From the NCBI RefSeq assembly GCF_000002985.6, contig NC_003283.11, positions 18,415,501 to 18,479,500 of the forward strand: DNA of 64,000 nucleotides, read 5' to 3'. Every line of letters starts with the position of its first letter. Position 1 is the first letter of the stretch. The notes below the pieces were generated by a model. That model searched no databases and was not told the DNA's origin. It was given only the letters and a program-made list of their open reading frames with translations. The DNA is from Caenorhabditis elegans (lineage: Eukaryota; Nematoda; Chromadorea; Rhabditida; Rhabditidae). Positions 18,990-39,907 of this stretch are shown here, piece after piece. Made by a program: the position numbers and the translations under genes.

Positions 18990-20070
18990 ATTCAAGGTCA
19001 GAAAACAATTTCAAAGTGCGAGCGATTTGAAACTCGTATTCGTCCGGACGTCCGCCAACTTTTTTTGCAATTTTTTGATCTCCGCTTGATGGCCGGCAAT
19101 CATTTTCAAAACAAGTGATTCATATTCGTCTAATGATAAGTCGAGAGAATCGAGATTCAATTCAGCCACTTGTGAAATGTTAACAGAACAATTGGAAAAT
19201 AAATAAGCCTGAAATATACATAATTATAATTTAAAAAAGCTTCAGTATTTAATTATTAATATTACAAAAAAACATTAATTTTTTGGCAAACTGTTTTCTC
19301 CTGTGCAGGAATAATTAAATAGTAATATAATTTTCTCGGAAATTCAATAAATGTTTTAAAAATATTTTAAAGACCCACTTTTTTATTGTCAATAGCGTTG
19401 TTATTGAAGCTGTTTGAAACATTTGGATTACTTTCGAGAAGTTTTCGGATTTGCGGCAAATTCGCTATTTTAAGAAAACAGACAGAAAAGTGAATCAAAC
19501 TGCAAATGCACAAGGTTTTATAGATGTTGAATGTGCTCATATCATTGTTAGCGAGACGCATGTGACCCCACCCCCTCACAAGTCTAAGGAATGTTTATTC
19601 ATTCTTTAGAGAATTGTTCTTTATTCCTTAGAGGAATGTTCAATTTTGTATCTTTCTCTTCTTCGAGGTATACATTTCATTCTCGCAAAACTAAGATAAC
19701 ACAGAATAATCAATGAGTAGAGTTGCATCATTGAAAAACACGTCTTGAGTAGAATTGGAGAGGTTTTTCTATTACCTTATAGTTAGTAAACACCACTGCA
19801 CTGGGACTATATTGCAATTTGTTGTTCGGAACGCTCTGAGTAATTGCCTACATTTGTATACAGCTGCATGTCATTTTACATGTTCTTTTTAATAATGTTC
19901 ATTCTGATCGTAGTATGGTAAACTCTGGGCTACTATTTCCATACAAGACGTATTGCAGTTTGTTAGTATGCGCATTTGTGAAGCACTGATATTTTAATGC
20001 ATATTCATTGCAAAGTTTGATTTAGGTATTAAAAAAAACAACGTTGTAATTTTTGTACTATTGCTGCAAT
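18990..20070. repeat. Left arm of an inverted duplication flanking the retrotransposon
   Basis: Segments match, in reverse complement, the region 40550-41770. Matches include the coiled-coil exons, AATTGCCTACATTTGTATAC versus AAATGTAGGCAATTACTC, GTTGTTCGGAACGCTCTGAG versus CAGCGTTCCGAACAAC, and ATCGATTGCTTGGTA versus TACCAAGCAATCGAT. Identity is patchy outside exons, so the duplication is old. Confidence 0.7.
19011..19540 (-). CDS. Small coiled-coil protein, 119 aa, unknown function
   Basis: Two exons: 19540..19379 and 19208..19011, with donor GTGGGT and acceptor TATTTCAG, phase 0. The N-terminal exon has a hydrophobic start (KTLCICSLIHFSVCFLKIAN) and then NSFNNNAIDNKK. The second has AELNLDSLDLSLDEYESLV followed by a heptad-like helix (KMIAGHQAEIKKLQKKLADV) and the end NTSFKSLAL. 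No known family recognised. A second, inverted copy of exon 2 is nearly identical at 41600-41770, but there the N-terminal exon is frameshifted. Preservation of the reading frame suggests this copy is the real gene. Confidence 0.55.
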
Positions 20071-20411: not shown

Positions 20412-20970
20412 TGTTGTGAGATGGGCTGGGTTCCCATCCCATCTCTCAAATTAGTGACCTTTTGAGGATGTCTCCATGACTCTATCATGATCGCCATACC
20501 TCAAAACCTCTAATACAATTCCATTCACCCGCGTTTCTTCCGTTAACTCGTCTCCAGTACGCTTCCTCATTTGAATTCCCTCCAATTGGTCTCGCCGCGC
20601 CCTTAAAGCTCCCCCCTTTTTGTATAATTATCCCTGGCCTAAAATGTAAGCCGCTCCGCTCACTTGCTACTCCAACAACACAAGTCATCAACGTCCACCT
20701 CATCTGGCTCCACACATTCCACCATCAATGTCGGCCTCGTTGGATGTCGGCCGCTCCACCGTGAGCGACCGACTCTGGACCTATGGACCCTAATTACTTG
20801 TTATTCTATGAGCAATAAAGGGGTTTTGTGGCATACAACTGTGTTCTCTTATTCACATCGCTTATCTCTTCTTCCTCGATGGCACTCCGCAACCGCCAGT
20901 ATCTCTCTAGACGCTTAATGTATTTGACGTCAGAGGTGTTTCCCCAACGCACTAATCTGAGCTGTCAACA
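20412..20970 (+). repeat. 5' LTR, 559 bp
   Basis: TG...CA ends. It contains TATAATT near 20630 and AATAAA at 20814-20819, the likely polyadenylation signal. One CAYCCGCG copy lies at 20526. It differs from the 3' LTR by a few substitutions and by about 240 bp absent from the latter. Confidence 0.93.
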
Positions 20971-20984
20971 TGATGCATCGACCG

Positions 20985-21008
20985 GTTTCGAAGCTTTGCT
21001 TCGAAATT
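20985..21008 (+). promoter_or_regulatory. Hairpin just after the 5' LTR
   Basis: TTTCGAAGC, loop TTT, GCTTCGAAA: a perfect 9-bp stem located where the primer-binding site and packaging signals of LTR elements normally lie. A tRNA primer match could not be assigned by eye. Confidence 0.45.
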
Positions 21009-21329
21009 GGAAACGAATGAACCTGTTGGGAAGAGAGAACTGGTTGCCACGAGCGAAGTTAGAGAAGGCAGGTGGATAAACCACCTTTTGTTGACCCGAA
21101 CTACCTTAGCTCGGAGATTACTCCGTCTTTCCCTGGCTAGACACCCCCGGAGCTCACTGACAGCCCCGGAGCACCATTTCGGTTCTCCGGAGGACGGTCG
21201 GAAACCCCCGGAGTGGGACAGTCGTCAGGAGAAGGATGGAGCAACCCAGAAAACATCTAAATTACGTAGAGACCTCAATTTCTCTACTCGTCTTCTACCA
21301 TCGATCTATGGAGGATTTTCGGGACGTCA

Positions 21330-21900
21330 CTGGCAGTGTTTACATCATCTGCGTCAGGAAGCTTCTGCTGAAGGACTACGACCGTCGGGCTGCCGCTGAT
21401 GTTTGGATTCCTATTGTCCTCAACTTCGCGGAAATCGATTTTATCGAGCCACTGTGCCCAAAGAACGTTTTCTGCGAAAAGGACAAAGGAGTCACGCCGT
21501 CACTGCCATAACTGGTCGTGTCTACATCATCTACGTCAGGAAGCTTCTGCTGAAGGACTACGACCGTCGGGCTGCCGCTGATGTTTGGATTCCTCTTGTC
21601 CTAAACTTCTTGGAAATCGATTTTATCGGACCACTGTGCCCGAAGAACGTTTTCTGTGAATAGGACAGAGGAGTCACGCTGTCACTGCCATCACTGGTCG
21701 TGTCTACATCATCTGCGTCAGGAAGCTACTGCTGAAGGACCGCGACCGTCGGACTGCCGCTTGGACTGCTGCAAATGCTGAAAGAAGCTGATGTTTGGAT
21801 CCCTCTTGCCCTAAATCGTCATGGAAATCGGGTTTTATCGGGCCACTGTGCCCGAGGAACGTTTTCTGTGAGAAGGACAAAGGAGTCACGCCGTCACTGC
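21330..21900 (+). repeat. Three tandem copies of a ~182-bp unit in the retroelement leader
   Basis: AGGAAGCTTCTGCTGAAGGA begins similar units at about 21356 and 21538, with a third (AGGAAGCTACTGCTGAAGGA) at 21719. Each carries GTTTTCTGYGA and GGAGTCACGC near its end. The third unit has an insertion. Each unit has an open frame (RKLLLKDYDRRAAADVW), but 182 is not a multiple of three and stops separate them. Confidence 0.85.
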
Positions 21901-22880
21901 CGCCGACACGAATCTCCATCCGAAGATCGAGGAGAATGTGGAAAAATTGTCGTTAGCGAGGAAATTGCACTGTCAATTTCCCCTAATGATCAATACAAAT
22001 TCGTTTCTGGAATTTGTGGCGCCAAAGGTGACTCAACGACAACATCCGCGTCGAAAACGCACTTTTAGAGACGTTACAATCAACAAATGTCGGTTGAGCG
22101 TCCAGAAGTGGCGATCGATACGGATGTTACGAGAAAACCAGACAGCGACCTCAAATTACCAGTAAACGAGTAGAACACCACCTAAAAATTGATCGAAACT
22201 GAGAAAATTGCTCTAGCATTTTCCGTTCGACGATTTCCCCACTAAAAAACTCTAAATTACAGACTGTGTTGGATCCGTGGAGAAGAAGAAGCGTAGAGCA
22301 GTCAAAATCTGGAATTTAAATACGCGTGGCTGAAGGAGATTGACTGTATCGGCTCTGATTCCCATCCAACGGAGCCAACCAGCTCTCATCGACATCGCAG
22401 GAGTTGCACGAATCTCATTCGCACGTTGGAGAATGCTCTACGAAGGATTTCATCTCGAGAAAATCCGATAATTCGAATTTGCGACGAATTTGCTGAAAAT
22501 CTGCGTTTTTCCCGAAGAAATTTGGGTGATTTCGGCAAATTTCGATCAAAAATGAAGATTGTCGATTATTCCGACCTGAAAAAATTCAAAAAATCCGGTT
22601 TTCCTTCGAAACATGCTGAATTCTATCCAAATCCACTGAACCACCACTAAAATTCGTTGAAATTGAATTTGCGCGTGGGTTACGGTAGCAGCGCGGTGAA
22701 CCTCACAGATTGTGCAAGGTGAACATTAGACATGGCACTTCCCCTAAAATTATTCGAATTTTTGGGATTGGCCTACGTTTTTGTTCATTTTCTGACACCT
22801 TTTGATGATTTTCCTTCGTTTCTTTTCGTAATTTTTCGTAAAAAATTCAATTTTCAATAGAATTATTAGTTTTATTCAGC

Positions 22881-25840
22881 ATGGTACCGAACAAAGCAGC
22901 CGGACAACCGAAAACGAGCACTCCACCACCCGCGTCTGAGATTCCGATGCCAACATCCGCGATTCCCACCAATGTAAGCATTTTTTATTGAAAAATTATT
23001 AAATATTTCGATTTAAAAAGTGACTTTCACCTAAAAATATGACGCATAATTGACAGCCGGTGCCACAGTTGCCCGTGTTAGTCAATTACCTTAAGGAAAG
23101 TTGAAACGAGCACGCAGTCTAGCGATTCACAGCAATCGCGGGATGTGATGCTTAGTTTCAATATTTCCAACCGCCTTCTATAATTAATCTGCCGAAATCT
23201 GGTTCTCGGATCGCGATTTTATCGCCTTCCTGCCAAATGAGAACCTGCGTAAAGAGATTTCGAGCATTTTAATTTATAGCCATGACTTAAATCGAGAAAA
23301 AGTTGAAACGGGAACACAGCCTAGCGATTCACACGCAATCGCGGGGCGTGATTCTTAGTTCAACATCTTTCCACCACTTCCCTTTCAATAAAATGCCGAA
23401 GTTTGGTTCTCGGATTGTGTGCTGGCACTTTCCTGCCAAATGAGTCCCTGCGTAAAGAAACTTCGAGCATTACCTTGATATCACCCTTTTGAACGAGAAT
23501 TTAAATTCACTTTACTTATTTTCCGGATTGAACTGTACCGAATATTGAAACTACTTATGACTATCAAGAGCTAAAGGGAAGATGAAGGTGGAAGTCACGA
23601 CAAATACTTACTTTTAACGGTTGAAACATTCCAGCCTCCAAAATTCTAATAAAAAATTTCTCTAAATATTTATACAGACGAGTGTTGTTTCAGGCAGTGG
23701 GCGAGGATACACCGACTCTCCAGGACGGGGCGCAGGCAAAGCACACAGCTTTGCCGCCAACCCTGCCGGATGATGCCGAGACTATCGTGCAATCACTGCC
23801 AACATCATCCGCGACCACCGCCAACGAGGAAACTCTAGGAGGTGATTAAATATTCGAAGAAACGAGCTGGAAAGTGCGATAATGTGCTGAATTTGGATCA
23901 ATATTTTTGAAAGGAGTCTATAGTGTGCGACAATGAGGAAGAGTCACGACTCGAGAAATCGAGGACGATGGCACTATCCCTTTGCCGACCACGTGGACTC
24001 CGGACAAAAATAGAAGATTTAGAATTCACATAATTATTTCATTATTTCAGCTCTATTGGAAGCCTGGAGCGCTATGCAGGTGTCAGTCGGGGAGAGCACG
24101 CAGAAGGTAGAGAGCTGCCTCGCTACGATGACCACCCACTTGGGTGAGTCACGAGACGAGTCAGCTGTCACCAACGCGGCCCTTGACAACATCCGCGGAA
24201 TGGTTAGCCGACTGGAAGGTATAGTATTGGTTTGTCATCGAACTTCCACCCTAATTGTGAATTCTTTTAGAAAAGATTGCTGGGAGCCACGCCACGCTGA
24301 TCCAGGACTTGGACCATCTGAAGAGAGCCGGAGAGGATCATCGTGTGACCATCGGCAACATCAACACCCGCGTTTCGCGCAACTCGTGCCTCGACGTCTC
24401 TGCACATGCCTACTCGATCTTTGGAAACAATGGTCTGGTGAACGCCAAGATCATTGTTGAAGCCACGACCGCGTACGGCCGCGAGCTCTCGATCTTCACG
24501 ATCGACACAGCCGGCTACTACTCGCGTACGGGTTTCACAAAGACGAGTAGGGAGGCGAGAACGGAGAGCCCGAGGATGAGCAAAATGAGGGAAGATGTTG
24601 TTAGATGGGCGAGAGGGCTAGGTACGAAGAGATGCTACGAGTACCGGGCAAGTTGGATGGATTATTTTTCCATCTCCAATTCACACACCCCATAGTCCAG
24701 AACCAGACAATGATCAAGGTATAGTTGATAGTCAAAAAAGCCTCGAAGCCAATTTAGTTCAATAATCTTCCTTTATAGCCGATCCAACATCCGCGTCTGA
24801 GAGAAACAACGAGTTGGTGATGTCGACATTGGAGGGCATCCGAGAGTCAGTTGAGTATCTTCGCTCACTTGAGATGGTTCTCGTAGACCGGAAAGAGAAA
24901 GATATGGCAACGAGACACTGGAGGGCGGAACGCGAGAAATTCGAGGAGATGTAGTGGAAGGATCAGATCGGCACGCGTGCTTCGACTGTGAAGCACGAAT
25001 GTGAGCTCTCCGCGATCAATGAGCAGGCGAAGGCCGTCGCGAGCGCAAGTTCGCGACTTGAGACTCACTTGCTCTATATGAATCGTGAGAAAGCCGCATC
25101 AGTGGAGACTATCCGACCAACACCCGCGAATTCGATCGTCAAAGCACCACCAGTGCCTCTCAAAAAGGAAGAGAAACCGGTTCAATCATCCGCGAAAGTC
25201 CCGACAATGGGCAGAGTAAGTGCAATTTAATTCCGATTCATAAACCCCAAACATCCAACTGATTTAACCACCTTCTTTCCAGTTTTGCATCTTCTGCAAA
25301 ACCACCACCCACGAATCCATCGAATGCAATTCTCACAAGGAATCGACTCAACGCGTGAGGTGTGCAAGAAGAAATGGATATTGCGATTTGTGCTTGTTGT
25401 CGTACGTGATTTCGGAGGATGGACACCACAAGGGCTGCACGGGACTCAATGTCACCTGCAAGTACTGCCTGGCACGCCCCGATTTCGCCTACGATGCCGA
25501 GCACAATGAAGTCTTCTGCGCAGTGCGTTTCAAGAACACGCAAAAAGGAAAGAAGGATGGAGCAAACAGCACCCGCGGTTCAGCTGAACCCGCAGCCCCG
25601 GAGCAACCGCACAAGAAGAGGAGAAAGAGAAAGGCGACAAGGGATGACAAGGTGGGTTTAAGTTTTATTCCGGGGAAAAAAGAACATGTTGAGAGAGAGA
25701 GTGAGGAAAAAGAGAACGAGCTTCATAAATTAGACGTTCCTTTACAGGAGGAGAGTGCTCAATCCACCTCCGGAACACCCAGCAATAAGATTGACTGGGC
25801 AGTATCAGGAGATGGAAAGAGTGAGAAGGCGGAGCAATAG
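22881..25840 (+). CDS. Retroelement gene A: coiled-coil protein with CCHC zinc knuckle (Gag-like)
   Basis: Exons read as 22881-22973, 23694-23841, 24051-24218, 24271 to an uncertain donor, 24697-24719, 24779-25215, 25283-25651 and 25748-25840. Introns have GT-AG ends and mostly matching phases. Order: Pro/Thr-rich start; helical coiled-coil regions (QVSVGESTQKVESCLATM; later ERNNELVMSTLEGIRESVE); CIFCKTTTHESIEC, an exact CX2CX4HX4C zinc knuckle; further Cys-rich stretches (CDLCLLS, CTGLNVTCKYC); a basic KKRRKRK cluster. Knuckle plus coiled coil plus basic tail suggests nucleic-acid binding, like a Gag/nucleocapsid protein (inference). An in-frame TAG at 24952-24954 interrupts the coiled coil, and the donor of the fourth exon does not fit the next phase, so this copy may be broken. 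AATAAA follows at 26102. Confidence 0.6.
23099..23475 (+). repeat. Two tandem ~200-bp copies in the first intron of gene A
   Basis: GTTGAAACG..., CTAGCGATTCACA, GGTTCTCGGAT, TTCCTGCCAAATGAG and CTGCGTAAAGA recur in the same order in two consecutive segments (about 23099 and 23301). Confidence 0.8.
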
Positions 25841-26101
25841 CTCTGACCTTCAATCCACTACTACCACCCGCGAGTTGAATGATCTTCTTTAATGTTGTTG
25901 TTACTTGTTATTAATTTGTTATTTTTTAATTTGTTAACTTAATTTGTTCTACTTATTTCCCTTTCCTACCCAATGGTTCCATCACCTGCGTTTATCTCTT
26001 AAAACCCTCACCAATCACCCGCGTCTTTCACTCTTTCTCCCCGGTCTAATTACCTCTGTCATAGCAGGAGGGTCTGTAAAATCGCTATAAACTTTCCCCC
26101 C

Positions 26102-26107
26102 AATAAA
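26102..26107 (+). terminator. Putative polyadenylation signal of gene A
   Basis: AATAAA about 260 bp after the gene A stop, well inside the retroelement. An internal signal suggests gene A may form its own transcription unit. Confidence 0.4.
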
Positions 26108-26843
26108 ACCGTTACAAATAGCCTTTCTCTCCATTCATCGTTTATTATTCACGAGTTCTCTAACTCAATCATTATCTTTATTTAAAAAATTAAATTATTA
26201 TTATCCATTTAAAAAGTCTGAGGGAGAAAGGATCCAGCCTATTTCGTTCCGAGTTACCACCACTACCACAGAGCTTTCCCGTAAGACTGCTGACGATAAA
26301 TTTGATCAACAAGTACTTTAGAGGAAAGCCAGATGGAAGAACCTAAAAATACTTAAATATTAAAAAATTAAAACAAAAATCTCCAGATCCAAATTTCGTT
26401 CTCATGCATTCTTTGGACTGAAGTGCATCCTAAATCAACATAAAAATAAAAAATAAGGTTGTAGAGGTTGTGAAGGTTGTGACAAGGACACTGTGCCGTT
26501 ACGATCTTTGCACCTCTTGCTCCTTTTGATCAGTTTAATAGTCCATCGACGATTGAATCGGAACTGACCGGGATGATTCGCGAGGAGATGTGAACCAAAA
26601 AATTATTTGTTTTGCATGACACAGCTGAACTCGAGCGCTTTAAGTTACGGTTAGGATTTGAAACTAGTTGGTTATACCACGTGATCGATTGTCTAGAGTC
26701 CAGTGGCAGCATGACTCCGACTATTAAACAAGACATCCGTGCTGACTGTCACATTAGAAAACGGCCGTTCTAGACAGTACAGAACATAATACAACTAGTG
26801 AACAATTCTTTCCGTTTCCTTCCCTTACCACACATTGTAGGTA

Positions 26844-28454
26844 CAGTGCTGGCCAAAAAGATATCCACTTTTGGTTTTTTGTGTGTAACTTTTTTCTAAG
26901 TGGTTATTTTGTTTTGAAACTTCACCACAGTGTTCACAAAATCTAAAAACACAATATTCATCAAAAATGTTCAACAGATTTTGAAAAAACTTCAGAAAAA
27001 TTCAAAAAAATCGAAAAACTAGAAATATTGAAAAAACCGAGGTTGCAAGGAAATGACAATTAAAGTACCGGAATATGAGCAATTGGATTTAAAAACAACA
27101 TAATTATGCTTAATACTTTGTCGCGTATCCGTTTGCATCAATAACAGCTTGACAACGACGTGGCATCGAGTCGATCAGCTTGTGAATAACTGACATGGGG
27201 ATAGCTTTCCAAGCGTTTTCCAACTGGTTGAATTTGGCATCTGCATTTGAAGCCCGAATACCTCCAAGACGTCTTTCCAACTCTTCCCACAAATGCTCTA
27301 TTGGATTCAAGTGCGGAGACTGACTTGGCCAATCGAGCAAATGCACACGACGACGTTGAAACCAGGAACGCACATGAAGAGAAGTATGCTTAGGATCGTT
27401 ATCCTGCTGAAACACGAAGCCACGGCCCACATTTTGAAGTGCCCAGGGTCGCATTGTAGTTTCCAAGATGTTTTCGTATTGAAAACGATCCATAATGCTT
27501 TGGATTCTCCTTAGTGGGCCCATGGAAGTGCTGGTGAAGCACCCCCACACCATGACGCTCCCACCTCCATGCTTAACGGTTGGGCATTGATACTTTGGAG
27601 AGTACCTAGAGCCAACAGGACGACGTACCCAGGAATTTCCATCACTCCCGAACAAATTGAACTTGCTTCCGTCAGACCAGATGTGTTTAGCCCATTCCTG
27701 ACGTCCCCAACGAAGATGCGCTTTTGCCCACGCAACTCGAGCCATGCGATTTTTCTTACTGATGAACGGTTTCTTGACTGGCTTTCGTCCGTGTAGTCCT
27801 GCTTGCTGTAAACGTCGACGAACAGTTCGTTTACTTGGTACAGGTTCATTTGGAGAACTTATAATCATTTGAATATCCGTGGCGGTCCTATGCGGATCTT
27901 CTCTTGCTGATCGGAGGATGTTGCGATCCATCCTATGGGTTGTCACTCGAGGCCTGCCGGGCGAGATTCTCAAAGCGACGGATTTCTAAACATTTATTAT
28001 TAAAAAATAATATTTTTCGAACTCACCTCAGTTTGGTACTTCTTGATTACTTTCCAAATAGTCGACGGAGAACGTTGAATTTGCAGCGCGAGCATTTTCG
28101 TGGGTATTCCTTGTTCGAAGCCAGCTACAATGGCTTTCTTGACGTCCAAGGAAAGATTTTTACACCCAACAGATTTTACCATACCTTAAAAATAATTTAT
28201 CAACCAAACAAATCCAGTGCAACAAACAGAGTGCGTTTTATTGATAATTCAAAAAAAATAATGAAAATTGGAAAAACGAAAAAATCAAAAAATTGAAATA
28301 AAATTCAGAAAAAATCGATAATCATGTAATGTTTGGTCCGCAAATTTGCGTAACATTTCGCTTTATGCACACGGAAAAATTCAAGTCAAATGGATGCTTG
28401 AGAAAAAAGTTACACACAAAAAACCAAAAGTGGATATCTTTTTGGCCAGCACTG
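26844..28454 (-). mobile_element. Tc1: Tc1 DNA transposon, complete, nested in the retroelement
   Basis: 1,611 bp with perfect 54-bp terminal inverted repeats beginning CAGTGCTGGCCAAAAAGATA, flanked by TA (26842-26843 and 28455-28456). Size and ends match Tc1. It lies between genes A and B in antisense orientation. Confidence 0.98.
27110..28182 (-). CDS. Tc1A: Tc1 transposase
   Basis: Two exons, 28182..28027 and 27985..27110, give 343 aa, the known length. The N-terminal paired-type helix-turn-helix domain contains LSLDVKKAIVAGFEQGIP and RSPSTIWKVIKKYQTE. The catalytic residues are Asp in HIWSDGSKF, Asp in FQQDNDPKH and Glu in NPIEHLWEEL (DD34E). No break is visible, so the enzyme may be functional. 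Confidence 0.97.
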
Positions 28455-28917
28455 TATGTGACCCGAGTGAGAGAAGGAACAGCAGTTGAAATACAGATAA
28501 ATTTTGGCAAACAGCCTTGCAGAACCCCAGTCATTGATCCCTTTTTTCTTCAGAACAAAGTGTGAAACTGAGTGAGGACTTTTATGCGCTTGTGTGTGAG
28601 AGATTATCTACTTAGAGTTGGGTCACGTAATTAGAATTTGTTTTTAAAAAAAAATTATTACTCAAAAATTATTTTTCCGTTTTATTTTTTAATTTTCTCG
28701 TAACCTTTTTAAATTCTTATCAAAAAATTTCATCTTGCCACGTTTTTCAGTCCATATAAGTTCTAATCTCTGGCATTAAATCAATACTTAAAAATATCTT
28801 CGGCTCTTTCGGTTGTGTTTTCTTCTTCTCCAGTTGCTCCGCAAACAGTAAGTGATATAGCTACAGGTTTCCTTCCAACTCTCTAAATTGTAATTAAGTT
28901 TATCATTATAGAAGAGT

Positions 28918-30396
28918 ATGGAAGACAACCCTGACTATAGACCACATGAAGTTGAGAGATATCCGGTTGATTTGCCACGACAACATCCGCGTCCAGGCAT
29001 TCTAGACATTCGTTGCGAATTCACCAGCATTAAGGAGTTTTTCGGGGAAGAGCCACCTTTCAATGAGCGGACTGTACTACGGTTCGCGGAATATGTCAGG
29101 GGTTACTATCCTGATCATCAACCCACACATGTCATGGATCGAGGCGGTCTAGCCCTGTACATTTGGATAGATCGTATGCCAACACCCGCGACCCATCTCC
29201 AACAAACCTTCTTACGCTTGCCATTTCTGGAGGAGGTGGAAAACCTTTCGAGATTCGTGCTTCGACATGCGAGAGCACAAAACGAGCATCTGGAGGGTGA
29301 ACGTACAAATCGCTGTTCAGTTTGTGGAAGTCACTTATTGGGCATGCCTTTGGCGGATCACAGCTACATTCGGTGCCCCCTAGATGCGTTGGAAGGAGAA
29401 CGTCGACTGGAGTTCTTAGCTATAAACCATGCAGCATTTTGTAGCAAGTGCAACAGCCGTTTTGCTAAACACACAGGTTGCACCGGACCAGTTTGCCACT
29501 CTTGTGATCAAAGAGGTCACACAGCTGCTACTAGACTGTGCGATTCACGACTCGGAAGGCTCACACCGGAAAGCCAACAAGAATTACTCACCGTGGTCAC
29601 TCAGCATCGAAGAAACTATCTACTTCACATCCGAAACCTGACTAATGATATTAACAAGCCACTGCGCTACCGTTCATACACTGATCAGGCTTACATCTTT
29701 CTTGAAAGACGGGTGGAAGATAGATGGTTGATCGATGGATGGGGATTCTACCATGATGACGCCGGTGAATTTCCACAACCAGCTATGCAAAGATACTCGA
29801 ATCATCCGCATCGTTCTGTTCGCTACAAAGGACTGGTCCCACCTGAGTACCATTCTCAGGCGGTGAACCCGATCCCAACATTTCCGCCACATGAAGTTGA
29901 GTATCTGCAAGCTGTGCATGAGGTTATCATTGAGTTTCATCGCTCTGGAGAGGTAATAGGCAAATCAGTAGATTGACATTACGGAAATTTTTAGCTTCAC
30001 ATGGAGCGAATTCTTCCGAATGCCGCAATCGCAGACGAACCAGTTGCCATCCCAGTTGAGGTTGATCCACCACCCGCGGTTATTGTTGAAGAGGGAATTG
30101 CCATCCATCCCGTTGAGAATGTAGATCCTCTTGAAATGCCTGTAAATGAGATTCACGAGAGAAATGTTGTGAGTCTTACGACATCATAGCAATAATCCTT
30201 CAATACCATAACAGTCATTCCTTCAGCTCGGAGCCAATCCAAACCCAATAATTACAAAAATTTCTTTTCTTTTCCTTTAATAATTATTTTAAAAAAAACT
30301 TAAATACTTTAAAAATTCACATTTCAGGCTGATTCTGAAGAAGACGGTGACGATGATCTGATTCTACAGGATCCGGTGAATCCCACACGGGAGTAG
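28918..30396 (+). CDS. Retroelement gene B: cysteine-rich protein of unknown function
   Basis: Exons 28918-29952, 29995-30168 and 30328-30396, phase 0 at both junctions, give 425 aa. The ATG follows a TTATAG acceptor of a probable leader intron. A central Cys/His-rich region contains CSVCGSHLLGMPLADH, CSKCNSRFAKHTGC and CHSCDQRGHTAATRLC, compatible with two or three zinc-binding units. The N-terminal 110 residues (FFGEEPPFNERTVLRFAEYV) and the region after the cysteines are well folded in composition but unfamiliar. The C-terminus is Pro/Glu-rich and acidic (EEDGDDD). It ends in TAG, after which the frame continues without a stop into gene C. Nucleic-acid binding is inferred only from the Cys/His pattern. 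Confidence 0.65.
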
Positions 30397-30414
30397 CTCG
30401 ACCTGCAAGAACTG

Positions 30415-31519
30415 ATGATAGAAACCCGAATCAACGGAGAAGCCTACATACATTGTCAGGAGCCGTTGACGGTTAATAACGATACAGCCAGACCAGCGTT
30501 CCAGCACAAAGCCTTTGAAACACTCCTACAACATCCGCTCCCCGAAGGCAAAAACGCTTTAACTCTCCGTGTGCGGGCGCTACAAGTTATACTATGTGGC
30601 AGATCCGGTACGGAGTGGGAAGTAAGCCCAGAGGTGTCAGCGGCTCTCCTTCGACGTTACGCCAAGGACTTGATCCTTTACGGACAAGCCTTGAAGAACG
30701 AAGAAGGTCTGATAGTTCAAATGGAAGAGTTTCTCAGTGCAACTGTACTGCGCAAGGAGCGTTATGGATCGGATATCGTATATATACCGTCAATGAGCCT
30801 CTGGGCAAAAGCAGAAGTTCGTCAATCGCTTACTCGCCTCTTTGATCCACATCCATTTGGTGATGAGACAACACGGCGTCTTGATCGGGTTGGGCACAAC
30901 CATCGTTATTGGTTTGGACTCCCAAGTAATCAAGGAGCTCTGCATGAAGACTTACAAGTCGCAGAGGAGGAAAGGTGACCCCTTCCCACGTGTCCATGTA
31001 ATGAAGATTATTTATCTTTATTACAGGCTCAGTGCGCAGCTTGTACCAACCAAAGCTCGTATCTGGGAATCTCCACTACATGACATTGGACAGTTGAGAA
31101 ATGCCCTCGAAATCCCAGTTCCCACGGATAACCAGGCTGTGCGTCTTCGTATTGGTTGGATGATTCATCTGCTAACTTGTCAACTCCCTCCTGAAACGGT
31201 CAACCAGGGTTCGTACGTTGAAGTACTGGACTACTTGAAGATCTTACGGGCGGCGACAAAACTCGTTCTCAGCATCCGCGAAGAAGCCTCTACCGTAAGG
31301 ATTGAGCTCTCGACCTGTATGAGACATATGGCCACATCATCCGCGAGAGGTCACAATTTGGTACTACCCACTTTTGGACTTTTCGTGAAGTATGCGATGG
31401 GGAAATGGGAGTCGTGGCTGAATGGTTGTTGGGATCACGTCTACGATGAGATCACGCTCAGACACGTTGAGTCATGCCCATGCCACGTGGATGAAGCAAT
31501 GTTCCGTTACGAATATTAA
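30415..31519 (+). CDS. Retroelement gene C: unknown protein, in frame with gene B across one UAG
   Basis: Two exons, 30415-30974 and 31027-31519 (GT-AG, matching phase), give 350 aa from the ATG. The ATG is six codons past the gene B TAG in the same frame. The protein is mixed alpha-helical in character (ALLRRYAKDLILYGQALK; LEIPVPTDNQAVRLRIGWM; FVKYAMGKWESWLNGCW) with a Cys/His cluster near the end (HVESCPCH). No family recognised. AATAAA occurs 50 bp after the stop. It could be a separate protein or the C-terminal part of a B-C read-through product. Confidence 0.6.
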
Positions 31520-31827
31520 TTTGAACCTTTCCAACAACCGCGTATCTGATGACAACATCTGCGTTTCCATCAATAAAAATTAATTTATTAAAAATACGTT
31601 GAAATACGATCACCCACTCATAAGTTAGAATAAATCCTCACGCGCGCGAAAAAAGCTTCATCTCAACATCCGCACTCACCTTAACTTTTCAATAAAACAA
31701 AAAAATCGCCTCGCTCCAGCCCACCAACACCAAATGCATTCCGGAATGCGTAGGAGCCCGAGGCCTTATAATCCTGATAGAGCTTGACTCCAAAGAGAAG
31801 CCTGCTCTGTCGGATTCCACCACCTAG

Positions 31828-32152
31828 AAATTCCAAGAGAATTTCAACCGCCTAGAAATTCCAAGAGAATTTCAACCACCTGGAAATTCCAAGAGAATTT
31901 CAACCACCTGGAAATTCCAAGAGAATTTCAACCACCTGGAAATCCCAAGAGAATTTCAACCACCTGCAAATTCCAAGAGAATTTCAACCGCCTAGAAATT
32001 CCAAGAGAATTTCAACCACCTGGAAATCCCAAGAGAATTTCAACCACCTGCAAATTCCAAGAGAATTTCAACCGCCTAGAAATTCCAAGAGAATTTCAAC
32101 CACCTGCAAATTCCAAGAGAGTTTCAACCACCAAGAAATTCCAAGAGGATTT
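31828..32152 (+). repeat. 28-bp tandem repeat upstream of gag-pol
   Basis: About 11 units of GAAATTCCAAGAGAATTTCA plus ACCRCCTR, ending 190 bp before the gag-pol ATG. Units alternate between CCACCTGG, CCGCCTAG and CCACCTGC variants, which suggests higher-order duplication. Confidence 0.95.
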
Positions 32153-32342
32153 CACCAAAAACAAAAAAAAAAAAAACCAAAATCAAATCAAAAAATTCCC
32201 TCAAAAATTCCCTCAAATTCCGACTTTAGTTTTCCCTGGTCCTTCTTTATTTTTCTCTTTTTTCAATTCATATTGTCTAATAGTTAATAATTAAGGTTAC
32301 TGGATTATTATTGTCCTCGGGCAATTACCCTCGATTTAAATT

Positions 32343-35300
32343 ATGGCGTCCTTGAACAATGGCCCAATATACCCGGACCGTAGCGACCACCCGTCACCCG
32401 GGCAGGACGCACGGATCCCAACATCAACCGCGACTGAAAGAGTGACCGCAGGTCGGACGAAAAAGAGAACTACTTCTCTCGCGATCCGTCTTGTAGGACC
32501 TCTGAAACGTCGCATCAACCAAAAAATTGAGATAGCTAAGCGTGTCTTAGCTGAATCGGAAGCGAAGATGAAAATCTTCCCGACCATGCCGCCTCACCAT
32601 CTTATCAGCGATGAGGACGCAACTTACCTCGATGCACTACTAATTCGGCTTCAGACCGTATTGGGGGCACTCGAGGGAATGCGCGACTTCATTGACGATA
32701 AGTTTGGCGATCCGGAAATGGCGGAAAACCCGAATCAGCAAGCATACTATCAGGAAGTTATCGAGCTACTCGAGAAGTCCAAAGCATCTTCCTTTGCGAA
32801 TCAACTGAGACGCGAAATCGAAGTGCTGCGGATGGAAATGAGAGTGAGAAACATCCCGATCTCATCGTTTGACGTCTCTACACTGGAAGCCACGGACGCG
32901 GAAGCAGGAGCTGTGACTGACGAAGATGAAGCCGATGCGGAGATGGAGATGGTCGAATCGACGGTGGAAGATCAAGCTCACAGGAGCTCAGGTCTACATC
33001 GTACGGTAACCAACCTCCGTACTCTGCACGGAGCCTCAAACTCGCCAGCAGGGACTCCACTTTCGAATCGTTCGGGGCTTTCATGGGATGATGGCGCGAT
33101 GACTCTTCACGACGAGTTACGATACTCGTACATGATGGGCCGCGTCGAGTCTCAAGTAGATCAGTCAACACCCGCGTCAAATCGAGGAAATGGTACTCGT
33201 GCATCGACTGAGCAACAACAACTACATGGTACATCATCAACGCTCCAGGGGGTGGTCCAAGGGAAACGTGAGCAGATCGAACAGGGCCCGCGTGACACCC
33301 CCATTCTCAGGAATGATGTCCCCACGACTAAGGGACCAGGTACGCTTACAACGACCGAGTATGCTGGGCCAGTCTTGCCGACACGTAGAGACAGAGATCT
33401 CACGATGATCCATGCAAGTGCTGGAACTCATACAGAGTCAATCTTCCACCCAACTCCAGGAGAAGCACCTCTTCAGGCGCAGGTCGGAGATCCTCTGTCG
33501 AGACAGATGGTGTCGGCACTTGAAAAAATCATTCAAGGTCAGAACCATTTGCAGTCAGAAGTTCATTCCTGTCGCGACTTGATGAATGGGCTCACTGAAC
33601 GAGTGGGAGAACTGGAAGCACCAAAAATTGTCTCTAAAATAAAAAACAACCAAAAAATAGTCGACGATAGTCAATCTGACCAAAGTTCCGATGAGGACGA
33701 GGGACTGCCACCAAAGACTCGGAGAAATATTCGATATGTCGAGGTGAAGAAGTCAAGTTCTTTGGAAACCGAAGGCATTTTGAAATATCTAGACAAATTC
33801 GACGGGTCTACAAATCTGAAAACATATCTCACTGATTTTAACGAGTCGGTGATGAAAAACAGAAATCTGAAACCCACCAATAAATTTATGATCTTAAAAA
33901 CGCACCTGTTGGGCAAAGCACGCGACTGTATCTCGAACAGCAGTGTTCCGGCTGAGGCAATTGAGAAAACCATCGGATCACTGAATTCGATTTACGGGAA
34001 AGATGAAAACAAAACTAGTCTTCTAGCTAAGATCCACGTCGTCGGTTTCTCACAGTCGGATGTAAAGGAGATGAGAAGAGCAGTGGTACGACATTCCAAT
34101 CTGGCCGATCAGTTGACACTCACCGGTATTGCAGAGAATGATGAGAGGACGTTTACGCCTCTCACGTCTCGACTCCCTCAAGCAATCCGTACTCGAGTCA
34201 CTCAATACTGGGGTCAGAAAGGAGAAAACGCCACGTTCCACGAGATCTTTGACTTTGTCAACAAATGCATTGATGACATAGCAAGAGAATCGGTGCTAGC
34301 TCTCAAACATCTCCCCTACACCGGCCAAAATGAAACTAGCGGACATGGAATCGAGCTCCCGTATGAGGTTACTCTCAATGTAGCCGAAGCCTACCAGGAT
34401 CTAGGAAACTTGAAGAAGTCCAAGTACTTGGCGGATAGCCCTGTGTACAAACCAGCGGACCATCCAGACAAGTATTATGATACTTCTTCAGGTGAGTTGT
34501 TGGAAGGATGGTATGCACCGGGAAAAGGTCCAATCATGAACCTTCTCCCGAAGACATTTCCAATTCAAGGCGAAATCCCTAAGAACCCATGTCGAGCTTG
34601 CGGAGAACGACACTCCAGTATAAGATGTACGCTCTCCAGCAAGGCATTCAGACAGGCGCTACGGGATGCCAAGCTATGTCCAATTTGCACGGGTACACAC
34701 GGTATTGTAAAATGCAAATGCAAGCTGGTATGTGTTCTCTGCCAAGGTATGCATCACACGGGTGGATGCACAAAAAGAGAGTATTATCGAGACATGAACA
34801 ACTACCCAGATGACGCGCCTCCCGTTCAGCAGTTTTTCGAGCTAGCCGGGAAGGCCGGCAATCGGGAACCAACCAGCAATAGGCAGGCCTGGGCAGGCAC
34901 GGGGACAACACCATCGTACCCCGTTCCCCAGGTCGCATTGCAACCGCCCTCTCAAATATCATGTCCGATTTCTCTTCCAACACCACCCGCGCATTCACCC
35001 GACAGTAACACTTTTCTCACTTTCCTTCCAACAACAGATCCGCAACAAGTCCCAACAAAACCAGATGTAGAACAATTCGCAGCCGCCATTTCCCGAGCAA
35101 AACCAGCATACCAGCTGGCGGCGATCGCAGAAAAGTCGGTACGTGACCACGGACTTTCCTTTTTATGTCTACGCACTAAGGAGAACGATTGCATCCCGAC
35201 TCTTGTAGATTCTGGAGCATCGATATCCCTTCTTGCTCACGACTGCGCTGAAAAGCTAAAAATGAAAATCCTGGCAACGACGAAGGTGTATCTATCTGGT

Positions 35301-38135
35301 TTTAACGGTGCCACCACTCAAATGTCTCACGTGTTCAAACTGCAGCTAAGGAAAAGAGCTTCACAGTCAAAGCTCACCTTAATGCTAGCAGGAATTGAGC
35401 ACATGCCAAAAAGCCCTTACAAAGCGCCAGTTTTCTCCGAGGAAGATCGAACATACATGGAGAATAACAACATCAATCATTCTGAGATCACTTCAACCGC
35501 TAAACTTGACGGTAGAAGGATCGATATGGTTCTTGGTAATGACCTGCTAGCATGGCTTAACGCTAACCAGGATACTAAGAAACATATTCTTCCATCTGGG
35601 AGGCTCGTTGAAATTACGGATCTAGGATACATTGTTCATCCAGTTCCGAATTACACGGTTTACCAAAACCAGCTTACCTATATGGATATCAGAAATGATG
35701 GAACTCTAATGCATGTTACGACTTTACTCGATCATCAAGCACCCGAAGATTGGAATTCAGCGTTGACTCTTCAAGTAGAACAACAGTGGAGATTAGAGAA
35801 CATCGGAATTGAAGAACCATCTTCACCCGATTCTTCCAAAAAATCATCCGCGAAAGATCTACAGGCCTCATTCGAAAATACCCTCAGATACAACTCTGAT
35901 GGCATTCTAGAAGTTGCCTTCCCACTGAACGGGAATGAAGTGCGCCTGAAAGACAATTACGGGGTAGCCTTGAGAAGACTGCACGCTACTCTAAACGCTC
36001 TAAATTCATCAAAAGATCCCACTTTATTAGCTCAATATCATCAAATTTTCAAAACTCAAGAAGAGACAGGCATCATCGAGCCAGTGACTCAGACCATGAA
36101 AGATATGAGCAAGTATTCCTTTATGTTACCCCATAGACCAGTGATCAAAGAGTCTTCTAATACCACCAAAGTGCGGGTCGTCTACGACGCATCCAGTCAC
36201 GCGGCAGGTCAACTGAGTCTCAACGACGTGGTACATGCGGGAGCTAATATGGTAACTCCGCTTTTCGGTATTCTTCTACGTTCACGTTTCATAAGATTCA
36301 TGATCGTAGGGGATTTGGAAAAGGCCTTTCATCAGATCCACGTCCAACCGGAATTCAGGAACTTGACTCAATTTCTCTGGCTGAAGGACATTGACAAGCC
36401 GGTTACGATGGACAACATCTGCGTTAAACGATTTGTGCGGCTACCTTTTGGCATGAGCTGTAGTCCAAATCTATTGGGCTCGGCAATTGTACATTTTCTA
36501 GCGCAAAATCCGGATGAGTTGAACGCTGATATTCTAGATAACTTATACGTCGACAATATTCTGATCGGAGTAGACGATCCAGCGCTGATTATGAACAGAA
36601 TTACTCGTTTGAAAGAAATCTTCAATAAAATGAAGATGAATATTCGAGAGTTGGAGGCTATCGACCCAAAAGACAGAGCACCCGACACGAAAATTAAGTT
36701 TCTGGGATATAAGTGGGATTCTTGTCCAACGACAGATACGTATATCATCAAAATCGCCGATGTTGACCTGTTTCACCCCACTAAAAGAGATGTTGCATCT
36801 AAGATGGCTGAAACCTTTGACCCATTAGGACAAGTATCCCCGATACAAGTCCCGATGAAAAGGCTTATCAAAAAGCTATGGAGCAACGATGTAAACTGGA
36901 AAGATCTAATCCCGGAGCACCTGATAGGAGACTGGAGAGCAATTCAAGCCGCGTTTAACAGTCCGACCGTGACAGTGCCTCGAAGGCTGACAACGGATTT
37001 CAATTACAAAGAGATTCAGTTGTTGGTTTTCTCGGACGCTTCACAGGATATTTATGCTGCGGCTGTCTATGCTCACTTCTCTTACGAAGGACTACCGCCA
37101 GTTACTACATTGCTTACAAGCAAAAATAAGATCAAGCCATCAAAAGATGACAAATGGACTATTCCGAAATTAGAACTGTTAGGAATTGAGATTGGTTCAA
37201 ATCTGGCCTCGACTATAATGTCGGAGCTCCGTTGTAAAGTTTCAAAAATCCGCCTATTTACTGATAGCTCGTGCGCCTTGTACTGGATTTTGTCTAAAAA
37301 GAACACACGTGTTTGGGTTGCAAATCGAATTGACCAAATTCATCTCAACGAGACCCGTATGAGAGAATGCGGCATCGATACCACGATCCATCACTGTCCA
37401 ACTTCTGACAATCCCGCAGACCTTGCGACAAGGGGAATGAGCACGTCTGATCTCCAGGCCAGTAAATTGTGGTTCAACGGACCGGAGTTCCTTCAGAAGG
37501 ACCCGGAAGATTGGCCTTGCAAAATCGAAGACACGGTGACTTGTCCAGTTGAATTCGCAGACTTGGTTTATTCAGAAATGATCGATCCGTCGACGAAAAA
37601 ACTGAAGAAGCCACTGATGGAAAAAGCTAAAAAGCCATCCGCGACCGCTACGGTTTTGCATATTCTCAAATTACCTTCCAGTTTTGAATCAATAGTTCCA
37701 TTTAAGTACACCAACTCTCTACGCAAATTAATGTTAATTGTTTATCGGATTCTCACGTTCATCAGCAAAACTATCCCAGTCAGAGCATCAGACACCGGAG
37801 TGTTACGGAGATTCAATGCAGCGCCCAATCTTCTAGAGAAGAGAAGGGTAGCGAGACATTTCATCATCCGCGAACACTACCAAGAGTGCGAAGAGCTCGG
37901 CTTGATCTTTCCGCCAAGCTTGAAATATTACGTAGCATCAGACGGCCTATATCGTGTTGTGAAACAGGCAAGGTCGCCAGCTCTGCCTGCAGAAGCGAAC
38001 GAACCGATCCTAATTCACCCGAAACATCCACTCGCTGAGCTAATCATGCGAGAAACTCACGAAATCAATGAACAGAACAATACGCTAGGGCAGCTCTGCG
38101 AACCAAATACTGGATTCCGAATTACTATTCGGTAG
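32343..38135 (+). CDS. BEL/Pao gag-pol polyprotein (1,930 aa before a frameshift)
   Basis: A single open frame from ATG at 32343. The Gag part includes a helical region (about 480-690) followed by three CX2CX3HX4C knuckles starting near residue 750 (CRACGERH, CPICTGTHG, CVLCQGMHH). The aspartic protease has VDSGASISLL (Asp about 956). The RT has RVVYDASS, the first catalytic Asp in VGDLEKAFHQ (about 1324) and YVDN (1402-1405) where many RTs have YxDD. RNase H starts at LLVFSDAS (Asp about 1565) with LFTDSSCALYW further on. The frame then enters the integrase N-terminus and is lost around 38065-38090, ending at 38133-38135. The remaining integrase is in the +2 frame. Expected role: particle assembly and reverse transcription in the cytoplasm. 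This copy cannot make a full polyprotein without a frame change. Confidence 0.9.
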   Translation: MASLNNGPIYPDRSDHPSPGQDARIPTSTATERVTAGRTKKRTTSLAIRLVGPLKRRINQKIEIAKRVLAESEAKMKIFPTMPPHHLISDEDATYLDALLIRLQTVLGALEGMRDFIDDKFGDPEMAENPNQQAYYQEVIELLEKSKASSFANQLRREIEVLRMEMRVRNIPISSFDVSTLEATDAEAGAVTDEDEADAEMEMVESTVEDQAHRSSGLHRTVTNLRTLHGASNSPAGTPLSNRSGLSWDDGAMTLHDELRYSYMMGRVESQVDQSTPASNRGNGTRASTEQQQLHGTSSTLQGVVQGKREQIEQGPRDTPILRNDVPTTKGPGTLTTTEYAGPVLPTRRDRDLTMIHASAGTHTESIFHPTPGEAPLQAQVGDPLSRQMVSALEKIIQGQNHLQSEVHSCRDLMNGLTERVGELEAPKIVSKIKNNQKIVDDSQSDQSSDEDEGLPPKTRRNIRYVEVKKSSSLETEGILKYLDKFDGSTNLKTYLTDFNESVMKNRNLKPTNKFMILKTHLLGKARDCISNSSVPAEAIEKTIGSLNSIYGKDENKTSLLAKIHVVGFSQSDVKEMRRAVVRHSNLADQLTLTGIAENDERTFTPLTSRLPQAIRTRVTQYWGQKGENATFHEIFDFVNKCIDDIARESVLALKHLPYTGQNETSGHGIELPYEVTLNVAEAYQDLGNLKKSKYLADSPVYKPADHPDKYYDTSSGELLEGWYAPGKGPIMNLLPKTFPIQGEIPKNPCRACGERHSSIRCTLSSKAFRQALRDAKLCPICTGTHGIVKCKCKLVCVLCQGMHHTGGCTKREYYRDMNNYPDDAPPVQQFFELAGKAGNREPTSNRQAWAGTGTTPSYPVPQVALQPPSQISCPISLPTPPAHSPDSNTFLTFLPTTDPQQVPTKPDVEQFAAAISRAKPAYQLAAIAEKSVRDHGLSFLCLRTKENDCIPTLVDSGASISLLAHDCAEKLKMKILATTKVYLSGFNGATTQMSHVFKLQLRKRASQSKLTLMLAGIEHMPKSPYKAPVFSEEDRTYMENNNINHSEITSTAKLDGRRIDMVLGNDLLAWLNANQDTKKHILPSGRLVEITDLGYIVHPVPNYTVYQNQLTYMDIRNDGTLMHVTTLLDHQAPEDWNSALTLQVEQQWRLENIGIEEPSSPDSSKKSSAKDLQASFENTLRYNSDGILEVAFPLNGNEVRLKDNYGVALRRLHATLNALNSSKDPTLLAQYHQIFKTQEETGIIEPVTQTMKDMSKYSFMLPHRPVIKESSNTTKVRVVYDASSHAAGQLSLNDVVHAGANMVTPLFGILLRSRFIRFMIVGDLEKAFHQIHVQPEFRNLTQFLWLKDIDKPVTMDNICVKRFVRLPFGMSCSPNLLGSAIVHFLAQNPDELNADILDNLYVDNILIGVDDPALIMNRITRLKEIFNKMKMNIRELEAIDPKDRAPDTKIKFLGYKWDSCPTTDTYIIKIADVDLFHPTKRDVASKMAETFDPLGQVSPIQVPMKRLIKKLWSNDVNWKDLIPEHLIGDWRAIQAAFNSPTVTVPRRLTTDFNYKEIQLLVFSDASQDIYAAAVYAHFSYEGLPPVTTLLTSKNKIKPSKDDKWTIPKLELLGIEIGSNLASTIMSELRCKVSKIRLFTDSSCALYWILSKKNTRVWVANRIDQIHLNETRMRECGIDTTIHHCPTSDNPADLATRGMSTSDLQASKLWFNGPEFLQKDPEDWPCKIEDTVTCPVEFADLVYSEMIDPSTKKLKKPLMEKAKKPSATATVLHILKLPSSFESIVPFKYTNSLRKLMLIVYRILTFISKTIPVRASDTGVLRRFNAAPNLLEKRRVARHFIIREHYQECEELGLIFPPSLKYYVASDGLYRVVKQARSPALPAEANEPILIHPKHPLAELIMRETHEINEQNNTLGQLCEPNTGFRITIR

Positions 38136-38182
38136 CCAAGACTGTAATCAGTAAATGTGTTCCGTGCAAGAAGGTCCACGGA

Positions 38183-39508
38183 TTGCCGTATCCTTACCCG
38201 CACTCGAAAACATTACCAAAAAGCAGAACAGAGCCGTCCAGTCCGTTCCAGAGAGTTGGTCTTGATTACTTGGGTCCGCTTGAATATCTCAAAGATGATG
38301 GAGTTTCTCTCGGTAAAGCCTATGTGCTCGTATATTCTTGTTTTGTCACCAGAGCAGTTGTACTAAGAGTGGTGCCGGACGGCAGTACGGAAAAATTCAT
38401 TATGGCGCTAAAGACTATTTTTCATCAAGTTGGCGTGCCACAAATGGTTTATTCTGATAATGCTCCGACATTCATTCTAGGTGGAACTGTACTCAACACT
38501 GATATCTCTTCGTGGGAAGATCGTAATGAGTCCCTCACTTCTTTCATGGTCGCCAGATCAATCCACTTTTTTCGCATTACTACGTTGTCTCCATGGCAAG
38601 GAGGAATGTACGAAAGAATTGTAGGATTGGTAAAACACCAGATGCACAAAGTATGTGAGGCGAACAAATTCGACTACTACACGTTGAGTTACGTCGTTTC
38701 TGGGGCACAGGCTATGGTCAACAACCGCCCCCTTACTCAGCACGCCCGAAGCCCAGATGACATGATTGCCATTAGACCATGTGACTTCCTGAACCCTGGA
38801 GTAATGATTGAGACGCCACCTACTGAGTTCACACCATCCGCGCAAAACGGAGGTCCTGAACAAAGAGTCCGCGCTCATCTTGCTCGTCTCGAAGAATCCC
38901 TTGAAATACTGTGGAAGTACTGGTCACTAGGCTATTTGATCAATCTGAGAGCTAGCTATCACAAAAATGTAAAGTGTTCCACTCTTACACCAAGAGTAGG
39001 ACAGGTAGTGCTGGTGAACACAAATCTTGTGCGACGACATAAATGGCCTCTAGGTGTAATTGTGCAAGTGCACGAGTCAAAGAGAGAGGACGAAATTCGT
39101 ACGGCAGTTGTTAGGTGCAAAGGGAAGTTGTACAAAAGGTCTGTGTGCCAACTCATTCCTCTCGAAGTCGCGTCCTCGGATGACGACAGTTTCCCTGAAA
39201 ACACTAACCAGGGAGATGATAAAGAGAGAGTGACGGATGCAAGAAAGATCGTTCAACATCCGTCGACTACCTCACTGCCAAAGCCTGCAGCTGCCCTCTT
39301 TGATCCTCGTAATGCACATTACTCTCCTGAGCTGTTTCCTCGATCGACACTCCCTAACCTTGCTGAAACGTCTGAGAATACCGATGACCTAAATACCCAA
39401 AATTTAAATATCCCCACAATACCAAATCCAAATTCAATTCCGAAGAAGCGACTGGAGGGACTCGAGACTATCGGCGAGGAAACGATTTTCTCGAAAACAT
39501 CGACTTAG
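38183..39508 (+). pseudogene. BEL/Pao integrase and C-terminal domain, separated by frameshift
   Basis: An open frame of 441 aa from an internal Met continues the polyprotein in another frame. Zinc-binding Cys residues lie just upstream (CVPCKK, about 38158). The DDE core is visible: Asp in VGLDYLGP (about residue 28), Asp in YSDNAPTF (about 92) and Glu in GGMYERIVG (about 144). After it come PRVGQVVLV and RRHKWPLGVIVQVHESK, the C-terminal domain usual in BEL integrases. A second frame change near 39475 is likely, because another frame (YDEAVVSQEAEAADYF) runs on into the 3' LTR. Known role: insertion of the cDNA, generating the 5-bp duplication seen here. Confidence 0.85.
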
Positions 39509-39584
39509 ACTTACCGAACGAAGAGTATGATGAAGCAGTAGTCAGTCAGGAAGCAGAAGCTGCTGACTACTTTCAACCCCGGAG

Positions 39585-39907
39585 TGTTGTGAGATGGGCT
39601 GGGTTCCCATCCCATCTCTCAAATTAGTGACCTTTTGAGGATGTCTCCATGACTCTATCATGATCGCCATACCTCAAAACCTCTAATACAATTCCATTCA
39701 CCCGCGTTTCCCCCGTTAACTCGTCTCCAGTACGCTTCCTCATTTGAATTCCCTCCAATTGGTCTCGCCGCGCCCTTAAAGGCGCAGCTCCCCCCTTTTC
39801 GTATAATTATCCCTGGCCCCCTCCTTCAACCGCCAGTATCTCTCTAGACGCTTAATGTATTTGACGTCAGAGGTGTTTCCCCAGCGCACTAATCTGAGCT
39901 GTCAACA
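39585..39907 (+). repeat. 3' LTR, 323 bp, internally deleted
   Basis: Shares both ends with the 5' LTR (TGTTGTGAG, CTGTCAACA) but lacks about 240 bp of its centre, including the AATAAA, and carries a 6-bp GGCGCA-type insertion. One CAYCCGCG copy lies at 39699. Confidence 0.93.

Follow-up and report, generated by a model that had tools for sequence, protein, structure and literature searches.

A sense-strand word dispersed along the Caenorhabditis elegans retrotransposon Cer8, with other words in related elements, suggests an RNA self-recognition system

Introduction

How retroelements tell their own RNA from that of the host or of rival elements is, to our knowledge, little understood outside the retroviruses. 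In human immunodeficiency virus 1 (HIV-1), the multimerising protein Rev marks viral RNA for export via one structured region. Single-stranded RNA viruses have dispersed packaging signals, which are many short, degenerate stem-loop motifs on the packaged strand. The DNA uptake sequences of Neisseriaceae and Pasteurellaceae are short self-tags repeated over the genome; they differ between lineages as dialects and are recognised by a reader protein. Here, we describe a short word, CAYCCGCG, that is repeated along Cer8, a BEL/Pao long terminal repeat (LTR) retrotransposon of Caenorhabditis elegans. The whole stretch of DNA that was analysed, called the window in the following, covers 64 kb (C5:18415501-18479500), and positions without a contig name refer to it.

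The accessible parts of PMC10309623 mention HIV-1 Rev and its response element and describe CERV of the Ty3/gypsy element Cer1, an element-encoded accessory protein of the nucleus that has a Cys-rich loop, a putative leucine zipper and a putative nuclear localisation signal. According to the same parts, CERV is needed to export unspliced genomic RNA and is found around RNA fibrils (PMC10309623). Term counts in the accessible parts of PMC3118150, which deals with BEL/Pao elements in metazoans, gave no mention of extra open reading frames (ORFs) or zinc. Dispersed motifs of this kind in Cer elements are not described in the titles and abstract openings of the top-ranked papers in the literature searched, a body that leaves most subscription journals outside.

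Results

Cer8 occupies positions 20412-39907 on the plus strand (C5:18435912-18455407; 19,496 bp), as delimited by an LTR and target duplication search, Pfam domains and the published position. It keeps CAYCCGCG as a short linear tag in about 25 sense copies, far above chance: 25 matches lie on the sense strand and 0 on the antisense strand, with one LTR site counted in both LTRs (20526 in the 5' LTR, 20412-20970, +; 39699 in the 3' LTR, 39585-39907, +). The densest stretch, 22043-26023, holds 12 sites (22043, 22927, 22954, 23806, 24190, 24365, 24788, 25121, 25187, 25570, 25865 and 26016). Five more are found in the accessory region 28984-31345 (28984, 29183, 30071, 31273 and 31338) and six in the gag-pol region 33169-38842 (33169, 34984, 35845, 37636, 37865 and 38835), all on the plus strand. 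The 25 coordinates reported in the initial annotation were without exception exact plus-strand matches (25/25). Its statement that the word is missing in antisense, in the flanks and in the nested Tc1 was confirmed as well, with counts of 0 on the minus strand of the whole window, in the flanks and in the Tc1/mariner transposon (~26842-28456, minus strand).

Throughout the C. elegans genome (100,286,401 bp, 7 contigs), CAYCCGCG occurs 484 + 488 times. At this rate, one strand of a 19.5-kb element should hold 0.095 copies, and 25 or more would occur with a Poisson probability of 1.5e-51. Shuffling the window with its dinucleotides preserved resulted in 1.53 matches on both strands together, with a maximum of 5. 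The two 8-mers of Cer8 with the highest z over first-order Markov expectation are CATCCGCG (13 copies) and CACCCGCG (12 copies), both absent from the antisense strand. One-base variants of the word are present in 0-2 sense copies each, with CAYCTGCG (5 copies) as the sole exception. Two of these five near-matches lie inside 182-bp tandem repeats (21329-21761), a point that would suit an origin of the series by chance, coding bias or copied repeats; the contexts of the CAYCCGCG sites, however, differ outside the LTR pair, and a tandem-repeat origin of the main motif was rejected for this reason.

Context was counted over 24 of the 25 sites, since one LTR site was dropped, and near-identical contexts of the Cer9-type elements described below were merged to 45. 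On the left side, A is found at -2 in 22/24 sites and C at -3 in 18/24, so that the context first given as CAA or CCAA is better written CAN and the fuller motif form is CANCAYCCGCG; the 3' side is without a comparable preference. The AACCGCG near-matches that had been added to the series correspond, in motif register, to 2 CAACCGCG sites.

Sites fall in the LTRs and the 5' region, and over the open frames of at least 100 amino acids they occupy all three reading frames, as the initial annotation had stated for the LTRs and the frames; some may also lie in introns. With protein and codon usage kept as the null, gag-pol of Cer8 contains 6 sites where 0.15 are expected, and the three accessory ORFs contain 4 where 0.16 are expected. 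Under the same null, the corresponding words of related elements were also in excess (17 vs 1.84 and 17 vs 1.53 for CANCCGCT in Cer9-type cousins, 9 vs 1.17 for GCTGCCC at C5:19.27M), and three controls scored with another lineage's motif matched expectation (1 vs 0.48, 0 vs 0.31 and 0 vs 0.13). A protein motif or codon bias as the cause was rejected on the basis of this null and the spread over frames; for the protein motif, this agrees with the initial annotation. The tag is not explained by protein or codon usage, and other lineages use other words, including one with a G-to-T change at base eight. With 6 gag-pol sites seen against 0.15 expected and the same pattern repeated elsewhere with different words, the probability that chance, coding bias or copied repeats explain the series is practically negligible.

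Local structural presentation was rejected as well. In a folding test of four motif sets (24, 31, 22 and 24 sites), the unpaired probability of the Cer8 sites was 0.51 vs 0.48 with resampled flanks, and the other sets did not differ from their resampled flanks either (0.52/0.53, 0.33/0.36 and 0.70/0.69).

The survey of related elements was confined to the C. elegans genome and covered 15 of its 22 Peptidase_A17 matches, and degenerate dispersed 8-mers were scanned for in BEL elements, Cer1 and the window flanks. Element pieces were trimmed to estimated limits, given by LTR matches or the end of the motif; at C1:2.05M and X:3.75M the limits were set without an LTR pair, as none was found there. 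The antisense comparison of the scan is symmetric by construction and provides no null, and simulations and ordinary stretches served instead. Cer8 reached a z of 25 and its kin 15-20, compared with simulated maxima of 6.9-7.9 (four sets of 15), 6.0-8.7 in ten other stretches of mostly ~10 kb, and 10.4 and 9.3 in the two 20-kb flanks.

Two further words were found. GCTGCCC is present at C5:20.3M (22 sense/0 antisense), in its near copy X:16.83M (25/0) and at C5:19.27M (13/0), and ATACCAWC at C2:13.25M (24/0, including two sites present in both element ends, L013:948 and 1001; z 12.4 vs simulated maxima of 7.0 in 24 runs). For the four lineages, the words may be written CANCAYCCGCG (Cer8), CANCANCCGCT (Cer9-type), GCTGCCC and AATACCAWC (C2:13.25M). 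None of the words exceeds 2 copies per strand in the eight other LTR elements (20-row count), and no motif above background was detected in Cer1 (10 kb), C1:2.05M, C4:16.1M, C5:17.1M, X:1.77M and X:3.75M. At C5:20.3M and X:16.83M (L034 with L037, and L036), accessory ORFs occur together with GCTGCCC and without a gag-pol match in 18 and 10 kb; both are possibly non-autonomous elements.

A sibling at C5:5179696-5191239 is ~90% identical to Cer8 where aligned and carries CAYCCGCG 13 times in sense and once in antisense. Fifteen of the 25 Cer8 sites align to it and 10 are kept; conversely, 12 of its 13 sites align to Cer8, where 10 are the motif and 2 are CAYCTGCG. The accessible part of the table in PMC4367959 names the sibling, chrV:5.18M (11.5 kb), and the copy at chrII:2.15M (9.5 kb) Cer9-1 and describes chrV:8.83M and 8.87M as 'mixed Cer8 and Cer9'. 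Here, we use Cer9-type for elements bearing CANCCGCT. This word was counted 31/0, 28/0 and 27/0 times (sense/antisense) in C3:13.2M, C5:8.84M and C5:8.88M, the last two counts leaving out the DNA that holds their acc1 (see below), and CAYCCGCG was found 0 times in all three. Shortened Cer9 copies at C2:2.16M, X:7.36M and X:17.13M contain CANCCGCT 5/0, 10/0 and 7/0 times in 3-kb pieces. Within the Cer9-type pieces trimmed to the element, the base following CA[ACT]CCGC is T in all 53 cases and never A, C or G.

Four of the 11 mappable Cer8 coding sites are homologous to sites of the cousins, with G and T exchanged at base eight: the counterpart of 31338 is CATCCGCT in C5:8.84M, and those of 35845, 37636 and 38835 are CAYCCGCT in Cer9-type cousins. 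The other seven and most mapped cousin sites are unshared, which indicates that positions turn over while the number is kept. In 13 of the 14 pairwise comparisons with sites, changes are less frequent in the core than in the flanking bases, six times with p < 0.05 (for example 1/98 vs 36/518, 1/56 vs 34/296 and 1/49 vs 36/259). These rows are not independent, and neither are C5:8.84M and C5:8.88M, which are near copies of each other, like C5:20.3M and X:16.83M.

A DNA-binding array had been listed among the possible functions. Such a DNA-level array, for a transcription factor or an insulator, or a signal for reverse transcription or integration, would fit the sites in the LTRs, and arrays of DNA sites are known from gypsy. 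An orientation of 25:0, 31:0, 25:0 and 24:0 in the four lineages is unexpected for a duplex array, and we consider this explanation very improbable because the sites point in one direction only.

In Cer8, the proposed motif reader is the product of an accessory ORF, acc1 (25268-25837, +), which combines three Cys/His modules with a basic stretch. It corresponds to database protein P0001 (199 amino acids), which is named 'Nanos-type domain-containing protein'; the likeness to the Nanos zinc finger amounts to this name and a weak, non-significant hit on Drosophila Nanos in the PDB (E 0.17), and Pfam returned no significant family for the accessory ORFs and listed no zf-nanos match. With Cer8 as query, relatives were found at C3:13.24M, C5:8.83M, C5:8.87M and C5:20.3M; the sibling retains a broken part of the gene, and X:13.60M matched weakly. 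A search with the C5:20.3M protein listed X:16.83M, C5:19.28M and X:13.60M, followed by weak matches at C3:10.09M and C2:13.247M (E 0.003-0.005). An alignment of the acc1 proteins of Cer8, C5:20.3M, X:13.60M and C2:13.25M has 12 invariant columns, of which 11 are Cys or His.

The locus C5:20.3M had been chosen solely for its relatives of the Cer8 accessory ORFs, and GCTGCCC turned up there. For C5:19.27M, a sense-only dispersed motif was predicted from acc1 before the sequence was inspected; the prediction held, and its word is that of its nearest acc1 kin. Altogether, nine of ten examined acc1-type loci (one with a truncated gene) carry a motif, a count that leaves out the weak acc1 match C3:10.09M. 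The second accessory ORF, acc2 (28912-29973, +), also encodes Cys/His modules and shows no link to the motif; as reader it is disfavoured, given a relative at X:9.2M without a strong motif and none found at C3:13.2M.

Identity of acc1 between Cer8 and the Cer9-type element at C3:13.24M is 36-38%, compared with 78% for reverse transcriptase (RT)/peptidase, which indicates that acc1 diverges fast. A model of the X:16.83M acc1 protein contains one continuous helix (92-227) with a predicted local distance difference test (pLDDT) score of mostly about 90, the overall mean being 59.9 from a 3-row alignment. This modelled helix may form a coiled coil. The P0001 gene model for Cer8 has no such helix region; at a guess, the coil of Cer8 acc1 might come from ORF 24023-24457 (+), a candidate picked by eye that lies outside P0001.

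The position, length and embedded Tc1 of the element in the window fit Cer8-1 in the accessible part of the PMC4367959 table (chrV:18439000-18457000 in WS190, 19.4 kb), which identifies it as Cer8, a C. elegans retrotransposon of the BEL/Pao type. The LTR and target duplication search gave a 5-bp duplication, GCCCG (20407-20411/39908-39912). Peptidase_A17 (PF05380, E 6e-56), RVT_1, DUF1759 and DUF5641 pass the Pfam cut-off, and the integrase domain rve scored below it. The gag-pol ORF (32343-38135, +) has three zinc knuckles at 34590-34770. A minisatellite is located directly upstream of the gag-pol ORF in 4/4 Cer8/Cer9-type elements checked (31815-32154 in Cer8; L010:2538-2921, L017 reverse 4757-5047 and L024:4461-4694), with differing units of 28, 66, 37 and 26 nt. 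Outside Cer8, at distances of 1.2 and 1.7 kb, lie the arms of a 194-bp inverted repeat (19039-19232 and 41575-41768; 99% complementary), possibly because Cer8 landed inside another element.

Discussion

The initial annotation had proposed, among other options, a multivalent RNA signal bound by a zinc-knuckle protein. An RNA signal fits best, in view of the 25:0 orientation, the excess under the codon null, the lineage-specific words and the motif at nine of ten acc1-type loci; the reader part stays a prediction. The different words of the cousins and the link with acc1 go beyond that annotation, which made no choice among its options. We lean, with modest confidence, towards lineage-specific sense-RNA tags that acc1 reads to coat, export or package the element's own genome, in which both the reader and the step are predicted. 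Here, acc1 would read the tag on the sense RNA, and many acc1 molecules would bind along a single transcript and then join one another, so that Cer8's own genomic RNA would be coated or condensed. The coated RNA might then be exported from the nucleus and/or packaged ahead of other RNA. By analogy with CERV of Cer1, nuclear handling and export may be placed slightly ahead of packaging.

That the motif mostly goes with an element-encoded zinc-knuckle protein suggests an RNA self-recognition system. Each BEL lineage could possess its own sense word and its own triple Cys/His reader, perhaps with a coiled-coil rod, the two having changed together; we put this forward tentatively. Such a code would give this genome four dialects, of which one was reached by a single-base switch, which we likewise regard as conceivable and somewhat short of probable.

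Several observations weigh against a tag read by acc1. In the comparison with the sibling, of the kind that the initial annotation had suggested as a check, 10 of 15 aligned Cer8 sites are kept, a share much like that of aligned 8-mers in general (53-63%); both core-vs-flank tests from Cer8 to the sibling were non-significant (p 0.67 and 0.098). Seven of the 22 Peptidase_A17 matches (C5:14.76M, C4:9.55M, C5:4.31M, C5:0.79M, C5:13.06M x2 and C2:2.52M) were left out of the survey. At X:13.60M, the tenth acc1-type locus, 10 kb around the acc1-type ORF contain neither a motif nor a gag-pol match nor a repeat pair, and at C5:17.1M a further small ORF with three knuckles occurs without a motif. When 12 elements are placed on a tree by RT/peptidase, the five rows with motif and acc1 need 3 changes (shuffled mean 4.0), so that the label is no more clustered than shuffled ones (101/500 as low), and three forks lie below full support. 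The zinc part of the X:16.83M model is of low confidence, and the link between motif and acc1 rests on about three independent lineages. Finally, the three shortened Cer9 copies keep the motif although acc1 was not among the matches that the genome searches gave for these places, and borderline, partly homologous AACANCACT series occur without a detected acc1 at X:9.2M (9/0) and C5:8.47M (8/0). Their top 9-mer z values of 9.9 and 10.0 exceed the simulated maxima of 7.4 and 7.1, while ordinary stretches reach 10.4.

As side observations, the borderline loci correspond to pieces L020/L021 (X:9.2M) and L019/L018 (C5:8.47M), and the X:13.60M ORF (L035:4624-4893) stands alone with acc1-like zinc knuckles, as a remnant or a host gene.

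An acc1 supplied in trans may serve the shortened copies; alternatively, Gag may read the tag. In the latter case, the Gag nucleocapsid would read the tag as a dispersed packaging signal through the three zinc knuckles present in Cer8 gag-pol, acc1 being a passenger, and both the shortened copies and the borderline loci would fit. Yet similar gag-pol zinc knuckles are borne by motif-less BEL elements too, and these are interspersed among motif-bearing ones in the pol tree, while nine of ten acc1-type loci have a motif. For instance, X:3.75M is the pol sister of the motif-bearing C5:19.27M (100/99), with no motif and no acc1 found in 18 kb. We therefore regard reading by Gag as rather unlikely.

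The motif could also be bound by a factor of the host, either an RNA-binding protein or an RNA, acting in splicing, stability or escape from small-RNA silencing. The sense orientation and the lack of a structural preference would suit an RNA-binding protein, and Cer8 and Cer9 are among the largest silencing clusters dependent on germline nuclear RNA interference in the accessible parts of PMC4367959, where Cer8 appears as a locus whose silencing depends on HRDE-1. Three unlike words and a one-base dialect in one genome would, however, need several host factors, and the motif mostly accompanies an element gene, which makes a host reader improbable. As the tagged elements are themselves silencing clusters listed there, the tags may bear on how such RNAs are handled. 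The reference genome of a model animal contains natural combinations of a word with its presumed reader, a one-base switch among them, and their specificity is directly testable in vitro and in worms.

For the function predicted for acc1, CERV is the nearest tested parallel. The likeness lies in the Cys/His modules and basic stretches of acc1, to which the X:16.83M relative may add its long modelled helix. The two differ in that 10 kb of Cer1 contain no dispersed motif and the accessible parts of PMC10309623 give no RNA-binding site of CERV. Rev acts through one structured site, whereas Cer8 has about 25 linear sites across the element with no structural context seen. With the dispersed packaging signals, Cer8 shares the many copies on the sense strand (25/0); their stem-loops have no match in Cer8, where a near-exact linear word is kept and positions turn over. 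In comparison with the DNA uptake sequences, which are bacterial and act as DNA, the tag of Cer8 is restricted to the sense strand of a retrotransposon and is probably recognized as RNA.

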